Positions 6,573 to 17,704 of a stretch of 64,000 nt of DNA are shown here, piece by piece. This DNA comes from Saccharothrix luteola (GTDB lineage: Bacteria; Actinomycetota; Actinomycetes; Mycobacteriales; Pseudonocardiaceae), in contig NZ_JAJHUO010000004.1 of assembly GCF_020859565.1 (NCBI RefSeq), positions 153,842 through 217,841 on the forward strand. Direction: 5' to 3'. The stretch's first letter is position 1, and every line of letters starts with the position of its first letter. Under the pieces are notes generated by a model. The model saw only the letters and a program-made list of their open reading frames with translations. It was not told the origin of the DNA and made no database searches. The position numbers and the translations under genes are program-made.

Positions 6573-7494
6573 GCGAAGCCTGGCGCACGACGAACAGGAA
6601 AGCCCAGGTGAGGACGATCAGGACGGCGTGGGCGATGAGGGGCCCGGGAGACTTCTCCACGAGGATCCAGCCGAGCCACGTGTAGGTGACCAGGGCGCCG
6701 GCCGCCACCGCGTACCGGTGGGCGGCGCCCCAGGCCGTGCTTCGGCCCCACCAGGTCAACGCGGTGGCGGCGAGGATCGTGAGGGCGATCTTGAGGCCGA
6801 AGCCGGTCCAGTCCTCGGGCACGGCGACGAAGAGCGAGGACACCAGGAACGCGCTGAAGCCGAGAGGGCCCGGGCGGGGCACGCGGCGGTCGGTGGTGGC
6901 GCGCGGTCGGATCAGGAAGGCGACGGCGATCAGGGCCAGGACGACCAGGGCGGCGCCGAGGCGTTGAGCCGGCGTGGCCATGAAGTCCTCTTGGGCGAGG
7001 AGGATCCGGAAGACGAGGGCGCAGCCGGCGAGGAAGACGAGCGTGAGGACGATCAAGCCGGTCCGGCCGAGCCACGGTGTGGCGCGCCGACGCCAGGCCA
7101 GTGATTCGACCAGGGCGATCGGGACGCCGATGCTCCAGACGGCGTGGCCGACGACGAACGAGTAGCCGTTCAGCGCGCTGATACCCAGGGCCGGGACCGG
7201 TGTGACGGCCTGGAACCGGTACTCCTCGAACTCCGGGTTGAACAGCGACTGGTCCAGCAGGCCGGCTTCCAGCACGCCGTAGGCGAGGCCGAGGGTGAGG
7301 ATGGTCGGCCAGCCCCGACCCGTGCGCCGGACGACCTCGCGGATCAGCAGCGCTCCCCCGCCGTACATCGGCGCGAGGACGACGAGCGCGCCGATCTCGG
7401 ACAACGGGAGGTTGCCCAGGACGTACTCGCCGATCAGGGGCGCGAGGAGGAACAGGATCAAGGCGGCGCGGATGTTGCGGGACATGCGGTGCAA
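6556..7494 (-). CDS. Polytopic membrane protein, unknown function
   Basis: 312 residues with about eight hydrophobic helices spread over the whole length, for example ALILFLLAPLIGEYVLG near the N-terminus, LIVLTLVFLAGCALVF in the middle and LIAHAVLIVLTWAFLFVV at the end. A second ATG at 7485 (MSRNIRAA) is an equally good start. It lies 59 bases behind the response regulator on the same strand and is probably cotranscribed with the two-component system. It may therefore be a target or accessory of that system. I do not recognise a transport or enzyme motif. Confidence 0.75.
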   Translation of the reverse strand: MHRMSRNIRAALILFLLAPLIGEYVLGNLPLSEIGALVVLAPMYGGGALLIREVVRRTGRGWPTILTLGLAYGVLEAGLLDQSLFNPEFEEYRFQAVTPVPALGISALNGYSFVVGHAVWSIGVPIALVESLAWRRRATPWLGRTGLIVLTLVFLAGCALVFRILLAQEDFMATPAQRLGAALVVLALIAVAFLIRPRATTDRRVPRPGPLGFSAFLVSSLFVAVPEDWTGFGLKIALTILAATALTWWGRSTAWGAAHRYAVAAGALVTYTWLGWILVEKSPGPLIAHAVLIVLTWAFLFVVRQASLRVDS

Positions 7495-7553
7495 CGCTAG
7501 GAGCGGCTCGGGCTCGGCACATCGGGCTTGAGAACGGTGTCCGGCCTCCGCCT

Positions 7554-8207
7554 TCAGACCGAGCGCGGGCGGACGAGCCCTACTTCGTAGGCCAGGACGA
7601 CGGCTTGGACGCGGTCGCGGAGGCCCAGTTTGCGCAGGACGGCGGACACGTGCGTCTTGATCGTGGCCTCGGTGAGGACGAGGTGCTGGGCGATCTCGGC
7701 GTTCGAGAGGGCCAGTGAGACCAGGCGGAGCACTTCGACCTCACGGCTGGTCAACGCGTCCAGCGCGCGGGGGGACGGCGCCGGGAAGGTGTCCACGAAG
7801 CGGTCCAGCAGGCGGCGGGTCACCGAGGGCGCGAGGAGGGCGTCGCCGCGCGCGATCACGCGGACGGCTTCGACCAGTTCCGGTGGCCGCACGTCCTTGA
7901 GCAGGAAGCCGCTCGCGCCGGCGCGCAGGGCCGCGTAGACGGAGTCGTCCACGTCGTAGGTGGTGAGGACCAGGACGCGGGCGGGACTGCCGGAGGTGAC
8001 GATGCGGCGGGTCGCCTCCAGGCCGTCCACGGTGGGCATCCGGACGTCCATCAGGACGACGTCCGGCTTCAGGGACGCGGTGAGGTCCACCGCTTCGACG
8101 CCGTCCGCCGCCTCGCCGACGACGTCGAGGTCGTCGCGTGCTTCCAGGATCATGCGGAAACCGCCGCGCACCAACGCCTGGTCGTCGGCGACGAGGACGC
8201 GGATCAC
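7554..8207 (-). CDS. NarL/LuxR-family response regulator
   Basis: 217 residues from GTG 8207, which overlaps the kinase stop as GTGA; the longer upstream frame is a shadow of the kinase. The receiver domain (1-120) has the acidic pair in VLVADDQALVRGG, phosphoacceptor Asp in PDVVLMDVRMP, Thr in VLVLTTYD and Lys in FLLKDVRP. The C-terminal LuxR HTH (about 150-210) includes LTSREVEVLRLV and IKTHVSAVLRKLGLRDR. It is the output partner of the adjacent DesK-like kinase. Its targets are unknown; the membrane protein downstream is the best candidate. Confidence 0.96.
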   Translation of the reverse strand: MIRVLVADDQALVRGGFRMILEARDDLDVVGEAADGVEAVDLTASLKPDVVLMDVRMPTVDGLEATRRIVTSGSPARVLVLTTYDVDDSVYAALRAGASGFLLKDVRPPELVEAVRVIARGDALLAPSVTRRLLDRFVDTFPAPSPRALDALTSREVEVLRLVSLALSNAEIAQHLVLTEATIKTHVSAVLRKLGLRDRVQAVVLAYEVGLVRPRSV

Positions 8208-9247
8208 GCGGTCACCGCCAGCGGGAGGCGGGCGTGCACCCGGAAACCGCCGTCGGGCAACGGACCCGCGTCGACCGTGCCGCCGAGGAGCGCGGCGCGT
8301 TCGCGCATGCCGGTGATGCCGCGCCCGAAGGCGGGCACGCCGCCTCGACCGTCGTCGCGGACTTCCAGTTCGAGCACGCCGGAATCGTTGCGCACCAAGA
8401 CTTCCGCACGGTTGGCGCGGGCGTGGCGGAGCGTGTTCGTGAGGGCTTCCTGCACGATCCGGTAGGCCGACAGGTCCACGCCTGCGGGCAGCGGCACGGG
8501 TTCCCGGTTCACCTCGACGTGCAGGCCGGCGGCGCGCAGCGGTTCCACGAGGTCGGCCAGCCGGTCCAGGCCCGGGCGTTCCTCCGGCCGCACGGCGCCG
8601 AGGACTTTGCGCAACTCTTCGAGAGTCGCCCGGCCCGTCGCGTCGATCGAGCGCAACGCCTCCCGGGCGCGGTCGGGGCGTTGGTCGAACACGTCGTCCG
8701 CCGCCGCGGCCTGCACCACGATCACCGAGACTCCGTGCGCGATGACGTCGTGCAGTTCCCGGGCGATGCGGGCTTGCTCCTCGCCGACCGCGCGGTGCGC
8801 CGCTTGCGCCAACGCGACCCGCCGACTGCGCACGGCTTCGCCCACCGCGGCGACGACCACGGCGACGGCCATCACGAACTGGGTGTCCTCGGGGGTCGTG
8901 GTGCGGAAGTTCAGCGAGATCACGCCGAGCAGCAAGGCCAAGGCGGGCAAGGAGAACCTCGGTGGACGCGCGGCGGCCAGCGAGCCCATGGCGACGAGCG
9001 CGGCGAGCGGGAAGACCGTCATCGGCGCGACGAGCTGCACGACCAGGCCGCCGACCAGCGCGATGCCCATGACCGGCACGGGATTGCGGCGTCGCCACCA
9101 CAGCGCGGCGCCGGACACCACCGCGATCAGCGCGGCGGGCACCGTGATCGCGGTGGTGGAGGTGGACGTCCCGACGACCATGAACGCGACGAGCACCGCG
9201 ACCGAGGCCGGCACGAGCACGTCGAACGACTGTCGAATGCGGCGCAC
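8204..9247 (-). CDS. DesK/NarX-type sensor histidine kinase
   Basis: 347 residues. Four or five membrane helices fill the first ~135 residues. A HisKA_3 dimerisation domain follows, with the phosphorylated His in RIARELHDVIAHGVSV (about residue 165), then an HATPase domain with the N box (YRIVQEALTNTLRHA) and G box (EVRDDGRGG and GITGMRERAALLGG). It has almost no extracytoplasmic domain, so it probably senses a membrane or envelope signal. It is translationally coupled to the response regulator by a four-base overlap. The 71-base gap to the divergent HNH gene carries the promoter. Confidence 0.96.
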   Translation of the reverse strand: MRRIRQSFDVLVPASVAVLVAFMVVGTSTSTTAITVPAALIAVVSGAALWWRRRNPVPVMGIALVGGLVVQLVAPMTVFPLAALVAMGSLAAARPPRFSLPALALLLGVISLNFRTTTPEDTQFVMAVAVVVAAVGEAVRSRRVALAQAAHRAVGEEQARIARELHDVIAHGVSVIVVQAAAADDVFDQRPDRAREALRSIDATGRATLEELRKVLGAVRPEERPGLDRLADLVEPLRAAGLHVEVNREPVPLPAGVDLSAYRIVQEALTNTLRHARANRAEVLVRNDSGVLELEVRDDGRGGVPAFGRGITGMRERAALLGGTVDAGPLPDGGFRVHARLPLAVTA

Positions 9248-12612: not shown

Positions 12613-14199
12613 GTGCTTCCCACAGAAGGCGCCGGACGGCGCGGGTTCGGTCGAGTGCTCGTCGCGCTGCTGTTCGTGGGCGCGGTGGGCGCGGCGGTTC
12701 CCGCCCAAGCAGCTCCGGAGACGCCGTTGCAGCACATCGTGCCCGCTCCCGTCACTGCCACCCCGCGGCCGGGCGTGACGTTCACGCTCAGCGCGGACAC
12801 CAGGATCTACACCCACCCCGGCTCGGCCGGCGCGAAGCAGGTCGGCGAGTTCCTCGCCGGCGTGCTGCGCCCGTCGACCGGCTACCGCCTGCCCGTCGTG
12901 CCCGGCGCGTCCGGCCGGCACATCTCGCTGCTGCTCGTCGGCGCGGACGCCCGCGTCGGCACCGAGGGCTACCAGCTCGACGTGACCAAGCGGGGCGTGC
13001 TGATCCGGGCCCGCACGGCGGCGGGCCTGTTCGCGGGCGTACAGACGTTCCGGCAGCTCCTGCCCGCGAAGGTGGAGGCGAAGACCAGGCAGCCCGGTCC
13101 GTGGACGGCGGCCGGCGGGCGGGTGCTGGACTACCCGCGCTACGCCCACCGGGGCGCGATGCTCGACGTGGCCCGGCACTTCTTCTCCGTCGACGAGGTC
13201 AAGCGGTACATCGACCAGATCGCGCTCTACAAGGTCAACCGGCTGCACCTGCACCTGACCGACGACCAGGGCTGGCGGCTGGAGATCAAGAGCTGGCCCA
13301 ACCTCACCGCGCACGGCGGCAGCACGGAGGTGGGCGGCGGCCCCGGCGGCTTCTACACCCAGGAGCAGTACCGGGACCTGGTGGCCTACGCCGCCGCACG
13401 GCACATCACGGTGATCCCGGAGATCGACATGCCGGGCCACACCAACGCCGCGCTCTCGTCCTACCCCGAGCTGAACTGCGACGGCGTCGCGCCGCCGCTC
13501 TACACCGGCATCGAGGTCGGCTTCAGCTCCCTGTGCATCGACAAGGACATCACCTACCGGTTCGTGGACGACGTGCTGCGCGAACTGGCCGCGTTGACGC
13601 CGGGCGAGTACCTCCACATCGGCGGCGACGAGGCGCACGCCACCACCGACCCGGACTTCGACCTGTTCATGGACAAGGTGCTGCCGCTGGTGGCCAAGCA
13701 CGGCAAGACCGCGACCGGCTGGCACGAGTTCGTGAAGGCCGGTCCGCCCGCGTCGGCGGTGCCGCAGTTCTGGGGCACGAAGACCGTCGCGCCGGACATG
13801 GTCGAGGCAGCCGCCCGTGGCAGCGAGATCGTGCTGTCGCCCGCGACCAAGGCGTACCTGGACATGAAGTACGACGCGAACACCCGGCTCGGGTTGAGCT
13901 GGGCCGGGTACACCGACGTGCAGGACGCGTACGACTGGAACCCCGGCGCGTACATCGAGGGCCTGCCGGCCGAGGCGGTGCGCGGTGTCGAGGCGCCGCT
14001 GTGGAGCGAGACCATCACCAACACCGCGGACCTGGAGTTCCTGGCGTTCCCGCGCCTGCCCGCGATCGCGGAGCTGGGCTGGTCGCCGTGGTCGACGCAC
14101 GACTGGGACCGGTTCAAGGTCCGGCTCGCGGCGCAGGCCGACCGGTGGGACGTGATGGGCGTGAACTACTACCCGTCGCCGCAGGTGCCCTGGAGGTAG
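12613..14199 (+). CDS. Secreted beta-N-acetylhexosaminidase, glycoside hydrolase family 20
   Basis: 528 residues, start GTG 12613, five bases after AGGAGGA. An N-terminal signal peptide (RVLVALLFVGAVGAAVPAQA, cleavage near residue 35) is followed by a GH20b-like domain to ~150 and a GH20 barrel from ~175. Recognisable family blocks are RGAMLDVARHF, NRLHLHLTDDQGWRLE, EIDMPGHTNA, the catalytic Asp-Glu pair in YLHIGGDEAH (about residue 340), and the Trp-rich end GLSWAGYTD and WSPWS. It removes terminal GlcNAc or GalNAc from chitooligosaccharides outside the cell. The DasR-like site upstream suggests GlcNAc-responsive control. Confidence 0.95.
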   Translation: MLPTEGAGRRGFGRVLVALLFVGAVGAAVPAQAAPETPLQHIVPAPVTATPRPGVTFTLSADTRIYTHPGSAGAKQVGEFLAGVLRPSTGYRLPVVPGASGRHISLLLVGADARVGTEGYQLDVTKRGVLIRARTAAGLFAGVQTFRQLLPAKVEAKTRQPGPWTAAGGRVLDYPRYAHRGAMLDVARHFFSVDEVKRYIDQIALYKVNRLHLHLTDDQGWRLEIKSWPNLTAHGGSTEVGGGPGGFYTQEQYRDLVAYAAARHITVIPEIDMPGHTNAALSSYPELNCDGVAPPLYTGIEVGFSSLCIDKDITYRFVDDVLRELAALTPGEYLHIGGDEAHATTDPDFDLFMDKVLPLVAKHGKTATGWHEFVKAGPPASAVPQFWGTKTVAPDMVEAAARGSEIVLSPATKAYLDMKYDANTRLGLSWAGYTDVQDAYDWNPGAYIEGLPAEAVRGVEAPLWSETITNTADLEFLAFPRLPAIAELGWSPWSTHDWDRFKVRLAAQADRWDVMGVNYYPSPQVPWR

Positions 14200-14236: not shown

Positions 14237-15547
14237 TCACCACGGCTTCTCCACCAGGACGGTCTTGGTCTGCTGGTAGTGGTCGATCGCGGCGGGGCCG
14301 CCGATGTCGGAGCGGACCGTGTTCAGCCACACGCGGCGCGCTTGGATCCGCCGTGCGACGCGGTCGGCCACGGCGGTGTCCCGGGACCAGACGCCCGCGC
14401 CGACGCCGCGCGCGGTCTCGTTCGCCGCCTTCACCGCGTCGTCGAGGTCGTCGAACCTGGTCAGCGACACGACCGGGCCGCCGATGTCGGTCCCGTCGAA
14501 GCCCGTCCGACCTTCCAGGACCGTCGGCGTGACGTAGTACCCGCCGGCCAGTTCGCCGCGCAGGTCGGCGCGCTCGCCTCCGCGCACGAGCCGGGCGCCT
14601 TCCCGCCGGGCGGTCTCGACGCGCGCCACGAACTCGTCCACCTGCTCACGGCTGGTCAGCGCCCCGATCGTGGTCGCGGTGTCGAGCGGGTGGCCCGGCC
14701 GGATCGCCGCGGTGCGCTCGGTGACGTCGGCGAGGAACCGGTCGTAGACCGCGCTCTGCACCAGCGCCTGGTCGAGGGCGAAGGTGGTGACGCCCCGCAA
14801 CGCCTTGTCGTAGAACGCGTCGCGGTGCGCGGCCACGTCGGCGAAGAAGACGTGCGGGTGCCTGCCGGTCTCCGACGACCCGCGGGTCAGCCCGTTCACG
14901 ACGTTGACCACGCCGGGCGGCAGCAGGTCGGCGATCAGGCCCACGAGCACGTGGATGGAGGCGGGGGTCTGCTCGGCGGGCTTGAGCACCACCGCGTTGC
15001 CCGCCGCCAACGCGGGCGCGAGCCTCTCCGCCGCCATGAGCAGCGGCCGGTGCCACGGCACGACCTGGCCGACCACGCCGAGCGGCTCCGGGAAGTGGTA
15101 GGCCGTCAGGCCCTCGCCGGGCCGCGAGATGCCGCCCTCCTGGGCTCTGATCACGGCCGCGAAGCGGCGGAAGTGGTCGACCACCGACGGCAGGTCGGCG
15201 GCCAGCGCCTCGCCGATCGGCTTGCCGGTCTCCCAGGTCTCGGCCACCGCGAGGGCGTCGAGGTGGTCCTCGACCCGGTCGGCGATCTCGTTGAGCACGT
15301 TCGCCCGTTCGGCGGCGGACGTGCGGCCCCACCGGCGAGCCGCGCCGTGCGCGGCGTCCAACGCCCGGTCCAGGTCCCCGGCCGCGCCCCGGGCCACCTC
15401 GGTGAACACCTCGCCGGTGACGGGGGTGTGGTCGGCGAAGTAGCCGCCCTCGGCCGGCGGCACGTACCCGCCCCCGATGAAGTGGTCGTACCGGTCCCGG
15501 TACGACACCACGCTGCCCTGCGCGCCCGGCGCCGCGTACCTCGCCAT
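14237..15547 (-). CDS. Aldehyde dehydrogenase homologue lacking catalytic motifs (probable pseudoenzyme or remnant)
   Basis: 436 residues from ATG 15547, against about 500 for the AldB/ExaC-type aldehyde dehydrogenases it clearly matches (AETWETGKPIGEALAADLP, AGNAVVLKPAEQTPASIHVL, SGGYYV-like AGGYYVTPTVLEG, DHYQQTKT). The functional blocks are missing or altered. PWNFP is PWHRP at ~164-168. The FTGS and ELGGKSP region has shrunk to TRGSSETGRHPHVFFADV (~221-238). The segment with the nucleophilic Cys is gone (TFALDQALVQS, ~255-265). EEIFGP is replaced by DIGGP, and the C-terminal GGYKxSGIGRE is absent. All losses keep the frame and codon bias. The NAD-site Lys of LKPAEQTP remains. It is unlikely to work as a dehydrogenase and could be a regulator, a scaffold, or a gene in decay. 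Confidence 0.85.
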   Translation of the reverse strand: MARYAAPGAQGSVVSYRDRYDHFIGGGYVPPAEGGYFADHTPVTGEVFTEVARGAAGDLDRALDAAHGAARRWGRTSAAERANVLNEIADRVEDHLDALAVAETWETGKPIGEALAADLPSVVDHFRRFAAVIRAQEGGISRPGEGLTAYHFPEPLGVVGQVVPWHRPLLMAAERLAPALAAGNAVVLKPAEQTPASIHVLVGLIADLLPPGVVNVVNGLTRGSSETGRHPHVFFADVAAHRDAFYDKALRGVTTFALDQALVQSAVYDRFLADVTERTAAIRPGHPLDTATTIGALTSREQVDEFVARVETARREGARLVRGGERADLRGELAGGYYVTPTVLEGRTGFDGTDIGGPVVSLTRFDDLDDAVKAANETARGVGAGVWSRDTAVADRVARRIQARRVWLNTVRSDIGGPAAIDHYQQTKTVLVEKPW

Positions 15548-15682
15548 GTCCGCCCCTCCTCGCGTTGGTCGTGGGGCAGCAGCGTCGGGCGCACGACGTT
15601 GCAACCGCGTTGCACCCGAACGGATCAGCGTTTCGCTTGCCGCGACCGGCGCGGGCGGGTCATCCTGGTCGGGGAGGCGCCC
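15548..15682. promoter_or_regulatory. Divergent intergenic region between the ALDH homologue and the GAF regulator
   Basis: This 135-base gap must contain both promoters. Direct GTTGCA copies occur near 15597 and 15609 (ACGTTGCAACCGCGTTGCAC), which could be a regulator site. The match to any known operator is not established. Confidence 0.35.
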
Positions 15683-17095
15683 ATGCAACCGGACCCGCGA
15701 CGGCTCGCGCACGTGCACGAGGCGGTGCTGAGCGGAGGCCGGGCGCACGAGGCGCGTCAGCTGATCCTGGAGTCGTGGCGGCGTTCGCTGGCCGCGCGCG
15801 TCGACCCGGACCGGCACGAACCGCCGGTGGTGCTCGACCCGGCCGAGGTCCTCGACCGGCGCGGCGCGCACCCGATCGCGGCGGCGCTGCCGGTGCTCCG
15901 CGAGACGTTGCTGGGCTTCGCCGACGAGGCGCAGCACGTCATGATCGTCACCGACGCGGACGGCAACATCCTGTGGTGCGAGGGCACGAACCCGGTGCGC
16001 TTCCTGGCCGAACGGGTGCGGCTGACCGAAGGCGCGTGCTGGGCCGAGGACGCCATCGGCACGAACGCGATGGGCACGGCGCTGGCGGTGGGCAAGCCGG
16101 TGACGGTGCACTCCGCCGAGCACCTGGTGCGGACCTACCACAGATGGACGTGCGCGGCGAGCCCGGTGCGCGACCCGGACACCGGCCGCACGATCGGCGT
16201 GGTGGACGTGAGCGGGCCGGTGAGCAGCACGCACCCGGCGCTGGTCGCGCTCGTCTCCGCCGCCGCCCGGTTGGCCGAGGGCCAGTTGCGGGCGCGGTCG
16301 GCGACCCGGGACGAGCGGCTGCGGTCGGTGAACATGCGGCACCTGATCGGCTTGCGCGGCGAGCCCGGCGCGTTGCTGAGCCCGAGCGGCCGGGTGCTGG
16401 CCGCCGAACCGCACGGCCTGCTGGAGACGCGGGTGGACGTGACCGGCGAGACCGTGCGGCTGGCCGATGGACGGGAAGCGCTCCTGGAGCCGTTGGACGA
16501 GGGGTATCTGCTCCGGGTGCCACGACGGGGCACGCGAAGACCCGTGCTGTCGCTGCGGTTCCTGGGTGACCCGAAGGGGTCGCTGGACGGTCGGGCGCTG
16601 CCGCTGTCGTTGCGGCACGCGGAGCTGCTGACGGCGCTCGCGCTGCACCCGCGCGGCCTGACCGCGGAGCGGTTGGCGCTGCACCTGTACGGCGAGCGCG
16701 GCAACCCGACGACCGTGCGGGCCGAGCTGCACCGGCTGCGCGCCCAGCTGGGCGGGGTGCTGCTGACCAGGCCGTACCGGCTGTCGGCGGACGTGCGCGG
16801 CGACTTCCTGGCGGTGCGCGACGCCCTGCGCGCCGGTGACGTGGGCACGGCCGCGGCGGCGTACCGGGGCGAGCTGCTGCCGCGGTCGGAGGCGCCGGTG
16901 GTGTGCGAGGAGCGGGAAGACCTGGCGGCGGCGTTGCGCCGGGGCGTGCTGGAGCGCGGCGACGTCGAGGCGCTGTGGGCGTTCGGCCTGGTCGCGGAGG
17001 ACGTGACGGTGCTGGAACGCCTGGTCCGCCTGCTGCCCCGCACCGATCCGCGCCGCGAGGTGGCGGCCACGAGGTTGCGCAGGGCTCTCAATTAG
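15683..17095 (+). CDS. GAF-domain transcriptional regulator with a C-terminal winged helix
   Basis: 470 residues from ATG 15683, with GGGGAGG upstream. A leading helical segment (AVLSGGRAHEARQLILESWRR) is typical of AcoR/DhaR-like sensors. A GAF domain follows at ~60-200 (GFADEAQHVMIVTDADGNI, AEDAIGTNAMGTALAVGKPV). No AAA+ sigma-54 domain follows. Instead, residues ~290-385 look like a winged helix (LRHAELLTALALHPRGLTAE, TTVRAELHRLRAQLGGVLL). This architecture is often encoded next to an acetaldehyde-type dehydrogenase in actinobacteria, which it probably controls. Here that partner has lost its active site, while the regulator looks intact. Confidence 0.85.
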   Translation: MQPDPRRLAHVHEAVLSGGRAHEARQLILESWRRSLAARVDPDRHEPPVVLDPAEVLDRRGAHPIAAALPVLRETLLGFADEAQHVMIVTDADGNILWCEGTNPVRFLAERVRLTEGACWAEDAIGTNAMGTALAVGKPVTVHSAEHLVRTYHRWTCAASPVRDPDTGRTIGVVDVSGPVSSTHPALVALVSAAARLAEGQLRARSATRDERLRSVNMRHLIGLRGEPGALLSPSGRVLAAEPHGLLETRVDVTGETVRLADGREALLEPLDEGYLLRVPRRGTRRPVLSLRFLGDPKGSLDGRALPLSLRHAELLTALALHPRGLTAERLALHLYGERGNPTTVRAELHRLRAQLGGVLLTRPYRLSADVRGDFLAVRDALRAGDVGTAAAAYRGELLPRSEAPVVCEEREDLAAALRRGVLERGDVEALWAFGLVAEDVTVLERLVRLLPRTDPRREVAATRLRRALN

Positions 17096-17104
17096 CCTGA
17101 TCAC

Positions 17105-17704
17105 ATGGGGTACTTCCGGCCGGGGGACGTGGCGTTGCGCCGCGAGGTGCTGCACGGCGAGCCGTGGGTGGTGACGCCGACGCGGGTCGTCGAGGACGGG
17201 CCCGACCTGCTCGTGGTGTTCACCGCGCCGGGCACCGAGTTCGGCTTCCACCCGCACCCGCGCACGCACCACTGGCAGGAGCTGGGCCGCACGCGCTGGA
17301 AGGGCATCGGCAAGCTCCAGCTGCACCGCCCCGGCGACGCCTACTCGGTCGACCTGTACTGGCAGGGTGACGACCGCCGCTTCGCGGGCTTCTACCTCAA
17401 CCTCCAGGAGCCGTTCCGCCGCACCGCGCTCGGCTTCGACACGCTCGACCACGCGCTGGACTTCTGGGTGCCGGTCGAGGGCGACTGGCAGGAGCTGGAC
17501 CGCGACGAGTTCGAGCAGATGGTCGCGGACGGCAAGTACGACGCCGCCGAGGCCGAGGGGATCCGGCGCACGGCCAAGGAGGTCGAGGCGATGCTGACGG
17601 CCGGCACGACGTGGTGGGACCCGGCGTGGGGCGCGTGGGAGCCGGACCCGGACTGGCCGGTCCCGGTGCTGCCCGCCGGCTGGGAGGACCACCCGCTGCC
17701 GTGA
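17105..17704 (+). CDS. DUF402 (FomD-like) protein
   Basis: 199 residues, ATG 17105, nine bases behind the GAF regulator. The DUF402 beta-barrel shows in DLLVVFTAPGTEFGFHPHP, YSVDLYWQGDDRRFAGFYLN (metal/phosphate-site region) and TLDHALDFWVPVEGDW. Members include FomD, a nucleotidyl phosphonate hydrolase, and others that hydrolyse nucleoside diphosphates or act in RNA metabolism; the substrate here is not evident. The stop overlaps the next gene's GTG as GTGA, so the two are translationally coupled. Confidence 0.85.
   Translation: MGYFRPGDVALRREVLHGEPWVVTPTRVVEDGPDLLVVFTAPGTEFGFHPHPRTHHWQELGRTRWKGIGKLQLHRPGDAYSVDLYWQGDDRRFAGFYLNLQEPFRRTALGFDTLDHALDFWVPVEGDWQELDRDEFEQMVADGKYDAAEAEGIRRTAKEVEAMLTAGTTWWDPAWGAWEPDPDWPVPVLPAGWEDHPLP

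Follow-up and report, generated by a model that had tools for sequence, protein, structure and literature searches.

Results

An aldehyde dehydrogenase homologue without its catalytic machinery

The window, namely the whole stretch of 64,000 nucleotides that was analysed, contains a gene for an aldehyde dehydrogenase (ALDH) homologue that, judged from its sequence and those of its relatives, we regard with moderate confidence as a maintained pseudoenzyme having a non-catalytic role in a module with a GAF-domain regulator, and not as a relic; the partner and the role are what we infer. This reading draws on deletions shared among homologues, open reading frames, a regulator and a presumed operator that have been kept, purifying selection, and a confident model of the ALDH fold. 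The features of the locus are as follows.

12613–14199, plus strand: convergent family-20 hexosaminidase, used as synteny marker
14237–15547, minus strand: ExaC-type aldehyde dehydrogenase of 436 aa, predicted to be catalytically dead from profile matches, alignment, and an AlphaFold2 model
14288–14293, minus strand: junction of the missing 16-residue AFGGYKQSGIGRE block
14474–14488, minus strand: former EEIFGP block, now DIGGP (residues 354–358)
14765–14770, minus strand: junction of the missing nine-residue Cys302 loop (FALDQ joined to ALVQS)
14864–14884, minus strand: junction of the missing 38-residue NAD loop and Glu268 block (residues 222–228; model confidence below 50)
15050–15052, minus strand: codon for residue 166, once the catalytic Asn (PWN) and now His (PWH)
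15555–15561, minus strand: candidate ribosome-binding sequence GAGGAGG, 7 bases upstream of the ALDH start codon
15596–15614, plus strand: presumed operator, direct repeat ACGTTGCA-N4-CGTTGCA with an 11-bp period, 48 bases upstream of the ALDH start
15683–17095, plus strand: divergent GAF-domain regulator of 470 aa (Pfam match to GAF only), which by eye presumably has a C-terminal DNA-binding domain
17105–17704, plus strand: DUF402 protein, 9 bases after the regulator

The ALDH gene is an intact open frame of 436 codons (ATG at 15547; TGA stop at 14239–14237), and its product scores 290 bits against Pfam Aldedh (PF00171; cut-off, 23), which places it in the ALDH superfamily by sequence and bears out the initial annotation of an intact 436-residue frame that keeps the scaffold. 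The top NCBIfam model is that of ExaC (acetaldehyde dehydrogenase; NF050026), with 510 bits against a curated equivalog cut-off of 900, and the best matches in a PDB search were ExaC-type ALDHs aligned in two pieces, between which the NAD loop and the general-base block are absent. Aligned with its intact counterpart of 507 aa at the syntenic locus of G008, the window protein is short by 71 residues, which are missing in five gaps: 38 residues comprise the NAD-loop/Glu268 block, 9 the Cys302 loop, 2 precede EEIFGP, 16 make up the AFGGYKQSGIGRE block, and 6 belong to the C-terminal tail (residues are named by what we take to be the usual ALDH numbering). Among the ExaC catalytic residues, Cys302 and Glu268 are absent and Asn169 is replaced by His (PWN to PWH), and the NAD-binding FTGxTxTG loop is deleted. 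The same alignment upholds the earlier proposal that the catalytic Asn, the NAD motif, the general-base Glu, the nucleophilic Cys segment, and the C-terminal GxKxSGIGRE had been lost. Two details of that proposal stand only in part: the EEIFGP block is altered, to TDIGGP, but not removed, and the missing NAD loop had been described as FTGS, whereas intact orthologs carry FTGETSTG. The window protein is an enzyme homologue without the conserved catalytic motifs, as the term pseudoenzyme denotes.

Dead and intact copies in the genus and the family

Searches covered 25 genomes of the genus, a family set of 297 genomes, and a class set of 394 genomes. An ALDH match was obtained in 22/25 genus genomes, comprising 9 short forms (the window's included) and 13 longer ones. 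At the same syntenic locus, ten of the 25 genomes carry all tabulated catalytic residues, 12 have copies that are dead or degenerate by their residues (hereafter dead copies), and three contain neither the ALDH nor the regulator. The exceptions that are not short are those of G003 (Cys302 to Gly), G011 (481 aa; Cys302 to Arg and Glu268 to His), and G001, in which the NAD loop is degenerate, Asn is replaced by Asp, and EEIFGP is lost while Cys and Glu are kept; from its sequence, the G001 ALDH appears to be degenerate. In G013 and G017, PWN is kept, the excision is shorter, and Ser stands in place of Cys302, so that the lesions are graded. Homologues sharing the deletions, which the initial annotation had named as support for a functional pseudoenzyme, were thus found in the genus together with graded shorter forms.

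The family search revealed short forms in 24 g8, 2 g22, and 8 g27 genomes, which together with the 12 copies of the window's genus (g1) make 46 dead copies. All of the g8 short proteins (24/24) lack the NAD loop and Glu268; the Cys302 position is occupied by Ser, Ala, Pro, or Thr in 23/24 and is kept only in G208, and the length is 445 aa in 21/24. A different degenerate form, a 474-aa ALDH of G191 (g26; L120, 8926–10194), was left out of the 46; the regulator is absent from its fetched stretch and the promoter repeat from its genome. Class-wide, in a search for dead forms beyond the family, 46 of the 394 genomes gave a match at E ≤ 1e-93; among the four candidates scored per genome, the only one running through the excision was the window's own, and weaker candidates may have escaped. 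A protein scan of the genome contigs gave three full-length ALDHs and no short form.

Retention of the regulator and the promoter repeat

In all 22 genus loci, the ALDH gene adjoins the family-20 hexosaminidase and is divergent from the GAF regulator. The hexosaminidase–ALDH–regulator order also occurs in 8/9 dead g8 loci read in context, with the exception of L111, which has no hexosaminidase match, and in 8/8 g27 loci. In g22 (G082 and G110; L102 and L103), a tandem ALDH–regulator duplication stands beside the hexosaminidase, in which one ALDH is intact and one dead, each copy having its own regulator and its own promoter repeat. ALDH and regulator are both present in 22/25 genus genomes and both absent in the remaining three (G005, G016, and G020), where the repeat is missing as well. 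The regulator could be aligned over its full length beside 46/46 dead copies (g1, 12/12; g8, 24/24; g22, 2/2; g27, 8/8), so that the neighbouring GAF regulator, annotated initially as intact, is indeed intact and is retained together with the dead ALDH. Two regulators beside intact ALDHs are damaged or altered: that in L095 (G007; 8326–9210, 326 aa) is truncated with loss of its C-terminal part, and that in L128 (G045; 7117–8997) is rearranged.

Of the g8 genomes, 23/24 gave a further ALDH match at E ≤ 1e-90, and both g22 genomes also have a second strong match; this second ALDH is an intact ExaC in the seven g8 and two g22 genomes read, and in those seven it lies beside another GAF regulator. 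In these g8 loci (L121–L127), the intact ExaC is accompanied by a shorter, diverged GAF regulator with the repeat variant CGTTTCA-N4-CGTTGCA, and the g8 regulator nearest to the window's stands beside the dead ALDH, not beside the intact ExaC.

At the divergent promoter, 44–71 bases before the ALDH start, stands the direct repeat CGTTGCA-N4-CGTTGCA, of which slightly different versions occur in other genera. The repeat lies upstream of dead and intact ALDH genes alike, in 52/55 intergenic stretches cut out; of the three misses, the L097 and L123 stretches were clipped by a misplaced regulator start, and L130 is one base off. In the 25 genus genomes, the exact repeat occurs as one promoter site in each of the 22 with the module and in none of the other three. 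With a looser pattern in 25 genomes of other genera, the number of sites equals that of modules in 20 of the 24 in which a module was seen; G180 and G226 have extra sites, G110 and G236 one too few, and G191 has neither module nor site. From this position and co-occurrence, it is likely that the GAF regulator binds the repeat. A wider regulon was rejected by the exact repeat search, in which the sole further match (L143, C1:324777–324794, in G000, the window's own genome) lies inside a coding sequence and is probably due to chance. Sites with two mismatches were no commoner than those of a reversed control in 11/11 genomes. A link to defence systems was likewise dismissed, there being no PADLOC match.

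Selection on the dead copies

No stop codon interrupts any of the 46 dead copies in the four genera. In a neutral simulation, the probability that such a frame stays free of stops fell from 0.19 at 0.1 substitutions per site to 0.07 at 0.2; the open frame in one lineage alone is therefore weak evidence. Under a codon model with position-specific base frequencies, omega ranged from 0.036 to 0.236 in 13 pairs of dead copies, omega = 1 being rejected in each (likelihood-ratio statistic, 27–286), and from 0.016 to 0.060 in six intact pairs; the pair L102b–L103a (omega 0.013 at t 3.16) was deemed unreliable and kept out of the former range. The simpler NG86 method gave dN/dS values of 0.14–0.32 in g8, g22, and g27 pairs and 0.20–0.78 in seven short-form genus pairs, and the window gene gave 0.59 against L081 and 0.73 against L087. 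The raw differences between the window gene and L081 at the three codon positions (54/47/63) show no third-position excess (p 0.31); those with L087 are 108/74/97.

Because third codon positions are 97% G+C, a further test was limited to C↔G changes. Between the window gene and L081, such differences occur at 40/258 fourfold sites and 17/517 sites of positions 1 and 2 (ratio, 0.21; p 4.6e-9), and between the window gene and L087 at 62/240 and 50/491 (ratio, 0.39; p 9.7e-8). The ratio was 0.09–0.10 in two g8 pairs, 0.12–0.15 in two g27 pairs, and 0.04–0.08 in three intact pairs, and C↔G changes were rarer at positions 1 and 2 in all 13 dead pairs tested (p 9.7e-8 or less). Selection thus does act in the lineage of the window, though with clearly less force than on the enzyme, and in g8 it comes close to the enzyme's level. 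GC1 and GC2 of the window gene are above those of the intact ortholog. Altogether, purifying selection acts on the dead copies, strictly in g8 and more weakly but significantly in the lineage of the window; that the gene is maintained by selection, as a pseudoenzyme should be, is borne out by the codon model and the C↔G tests, the simpler tests being weaker in this lineage. The initial annotation had argued that the in-frame losses speak against random decay, with which the kept frame and the selection on the dead gene agree. It had also named the lack of homologues sharing the deletions together with a high nonsynonymous rate as signs of error or decay: such homologues exist, and the rates are clearly raised in the window's lineage, though non-neutral by the composition-aware tests.

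Probable number of conversions

In the regulator tree (built without L121–L128, which have shorter or rearranged GAF-regulator frames), the partners of the nine short genus members form one clade (support, 95) beside the partners of the intact G008 and G009 ALDHs (96), and the partners of the g8, g22, and g27 dead copies fall into separate clades; the tree requires six changes, and the grouping of all dead partners into a single clade is rejected (p-AU 2.8e-6). The hexosaminidase tree agrees with the regulator tree for the genus (95 and 99). The ALDH DNA tree, from which L133, L123, L124, L127, L106, L109, L104, L110, and all g27, other-genus, and g26 rows were omitted, shows the same nesting, with the nine short members together (99) beside G008/G009 (94), and one clade of all dead genes is borderline (p-AU 0.050). 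The ALDH protein tree (without L120, L123, L124, L127, and L133), in which the dead branches are long, splits the nine short members and leaves one origin of the dead forms unrejected (p-AU 0.49). When the N-terminal half is compared, the dead clades of g8, g22, and g27 each lie, on average, nearer to one of the intact groups than to the dead copies of another clade; the nine short genus members are nearer to the intact g1 and g8 copies (0.77 and 0.75) than to the other dead clades (at most 0.71). Since loss of the catalytic blocks is taken as irreversible, we infer at least five separate conversions, namely one each for the nine short genus members, g8, g22, and g27, and one or more for G001, G003, and G011.

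Parts kept, parts gained, and structure model

Taking residues invariant in 24 intact proteins as the baseline, the four dead clades keep 85–91% of them in the first 125 residues, and only 4–22% in the NAD/Glu268 block, 11–73% in the Cys loop, and 9–46% in the GGxKxSGIGRE block; four single degenerate copies keep 69–97% in the first 125 positions and 9–59% in the NAD/Glu268 block. When all intact proteins were compared with 32 degenerate ones (that of g26 among them), 59 residues, of which the start Met is one, never varied. The suggestion of a pseudoenzyme that binds NAD is unlikely to hold, since no other part has been lost as completely as the NAD-loop/Glu268 block (4–9% of invariant residues kept in the nine short genus members, g8, and g27; 22% in g22). 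At enzyme-invariant sites, 34 substitutions are newly fixed or nearly so in the dead g8 clade (nine proteins) and 24 in that of g27 (eight proteins), and none is common to the nine short genus proteins; a list of 39 for g22 rests on two proteins and was unused. Only five parallel substitutions, each in two clades, are shared between dead clades. The dead clades share losses and retained parts, not gains, suggesting that the enzyme already possessed the function that was kept.

An AlphaFold2 model of the window protein, for which ten full-length ALDHs were aligned with it, reached a pLDDT of 85 and a pTM of 0.84, an earlier model from four sequences having been poor (pLDDT, 55). The closest solved structure is ExaC (PDB ID: 9koi; TM-score, 0.95 by query length), and the predicted structure has the ALDH fold. 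The model is least certain near the excision points (222–228, 349–355, and 411–417) and retains the hairpin 139–155 and the last strand 425–433, which we take to be subunit-contact elements of ALDHs.

Discussion

The apparent loss of catalysis several times at the same locus in one family, with the protein, the regulator, and the DNA site kept, suggests a second, non-chemical job. In the scheme that we propose, an ExaC-type ALDH would have been converted in place, in an ancestor of nine genus members, to a protein that lacks the catalytic machinery and is still selected, and the conversion would have been repeated at the same locus at least five times. A second, non-catalytic role alongside the GAF regulator may go back to the intact enzyme; the ALDH chain could, for instance, bind the regulator that drives its gene and set the activity of that regulator, in the fashion of trigger enzymes. 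Several lineages would now need only this role, which is probably carried by the retained N-terminal half and the subunit-contact strands. There is about an even chance that at least five in-place pseudoenzyme conversions took place in one family, often in genomes without an active ExaC, each sparing the frame, the regulator, and the operator. Several points run counter to the scheme. A regulator acting only on its own divergent promoter leaves the output of the module unexplained, and a further output is needed; in addition, the constraint in the window's lineage is weak, the ALDH protein tree leaves one origin unrejected, and almost no gained residues are common to the dead clades.

The raised nonsynonymous rate and the composition shift in the window's lineage, the neutral stop-free chance given above (0.19 or 0.07), and a degree of damage that differs between species speak for a gene that, having lost catalysis, drifts without function, frameshifts being absent by chance or avoided owing to the shared promoter region. 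Such slow decay is rather unlikely for the dead copies as a whole, in view of the open frame in 46/46 of them in four genera, the rejection of omega = 1 in all 13 kept pairs, the rarity of C↔G changes at positions 1 and 2, the near-fixed length in g8, the 34 and 24 newly fixed residues in g8 and g27, and the whole regulator beside every dead copy; for the window's own copy in particular, decay is possible. Artefacts are of negligible probability. A long antisense frame, in the same register as the regulator, does exist in the window, but it is unconserved (open stretch, 60 to 1854 bases; below 710 in 15/22 loci), which refutes constraint by an antisense gene. A sequencing or assembly error is refuted because the architecture recurs in many independent assemblies and the excisions, in full or in a shorter version, are present in related genomes, in some of them (G022, G006, and G013) within one contig.

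It is also conceivable, if distinctly improbable, that the dead chain serves as a subunit or modulator of another, active ALDH, tuning or stabilising its partner in mixed oligomers. The model points to retained subunit-contact strands, a second strong ALDH is present in 23/24 g8 and both g22 genomes (intact ExaC in the seven and two read), and enzyme–pseudoenzyme heterotetramers are described for TbPRMT (PMC10211241). However, no second ExaC match was found in the nine short-form genus genomes (E ≤ 1e-60) or the eight g27 genomes (E ≤ 1e-90), so that any partner in those genomes would be an ALDH of more distant kinship. Replacement of the old activity by a new one, catalytic or ligand-binding, would account for purifying selection and for newly fixed residues in g8 and g27, but is highly unlikely, the old pocket having lost its cofactor and nucleophile parts and almost no gained residue being common to the dead clades.

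By both sequence and fold, ExaC (NF050026; PDB ID: 9koi) is the closest family, and intact ExaC-type genes stand at the same locus in sister species; the window protein differs from it in scoring 510 bits versus the cut-off of 900 and in lacking Cys302, Glu268, the catalytic Asn, and the NAD loop. Trigger enzymes such as PutA and RocG are metabolic enzymes that also control a transcription factor or promoter. A likeness to them would rest on the co-occurrence with the regulator and the shared promoter repeat; unlike them, the window protein has, as far as its residues indicate, no enzyme activity left, and control of the regulator is hypothetical. Human ALDH16A1 has a two-domain build. It is described as a pseudoenzyme of the ALDH superfamily without the catalytic triad, for which interaction with protein partners is reported (PMC10650815); it is an animal protein, whereas the window form is bacterial, has large in-frame excisions, and occurs at one locus beside a kept regulator. 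Pseudoenzymes acting as oligomer partners have been reviewed (PMC10211241), and the TbPRMT prozyme is likewise a pseudoenzyme that has lost part of its Rossmann fold and serves through oligomer contacts, but it has an active enzyme partner, whereas dead-ALDH genomes are often without an active ExaC found. No comparable bacterial case was found in the limited collection of literature searched.

Pseudoenzymes are usually studied singly, whereas here intact, half-eroded, and fully dead versions stand at one locus in sister species. This natural experiment could tell a non-catalytic job of an ALDH apart from the catalytic one, and makes the selected part of the protein directly testable. If the proposed scheme is true, ExaC of this family would be a protein with two jobs, the regulatory one being the more durable. 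For genomes of this kind, the annotation 'aldehyde dehydrogenase' can predict a reaction that is impossible for the protein.

As a minor observation, the DUF402 gene is absent from the fetched stretch in g27, lies 0.5 to 2.7 kb off in several other species, and is possibly co-transcribed with the regulator in some.
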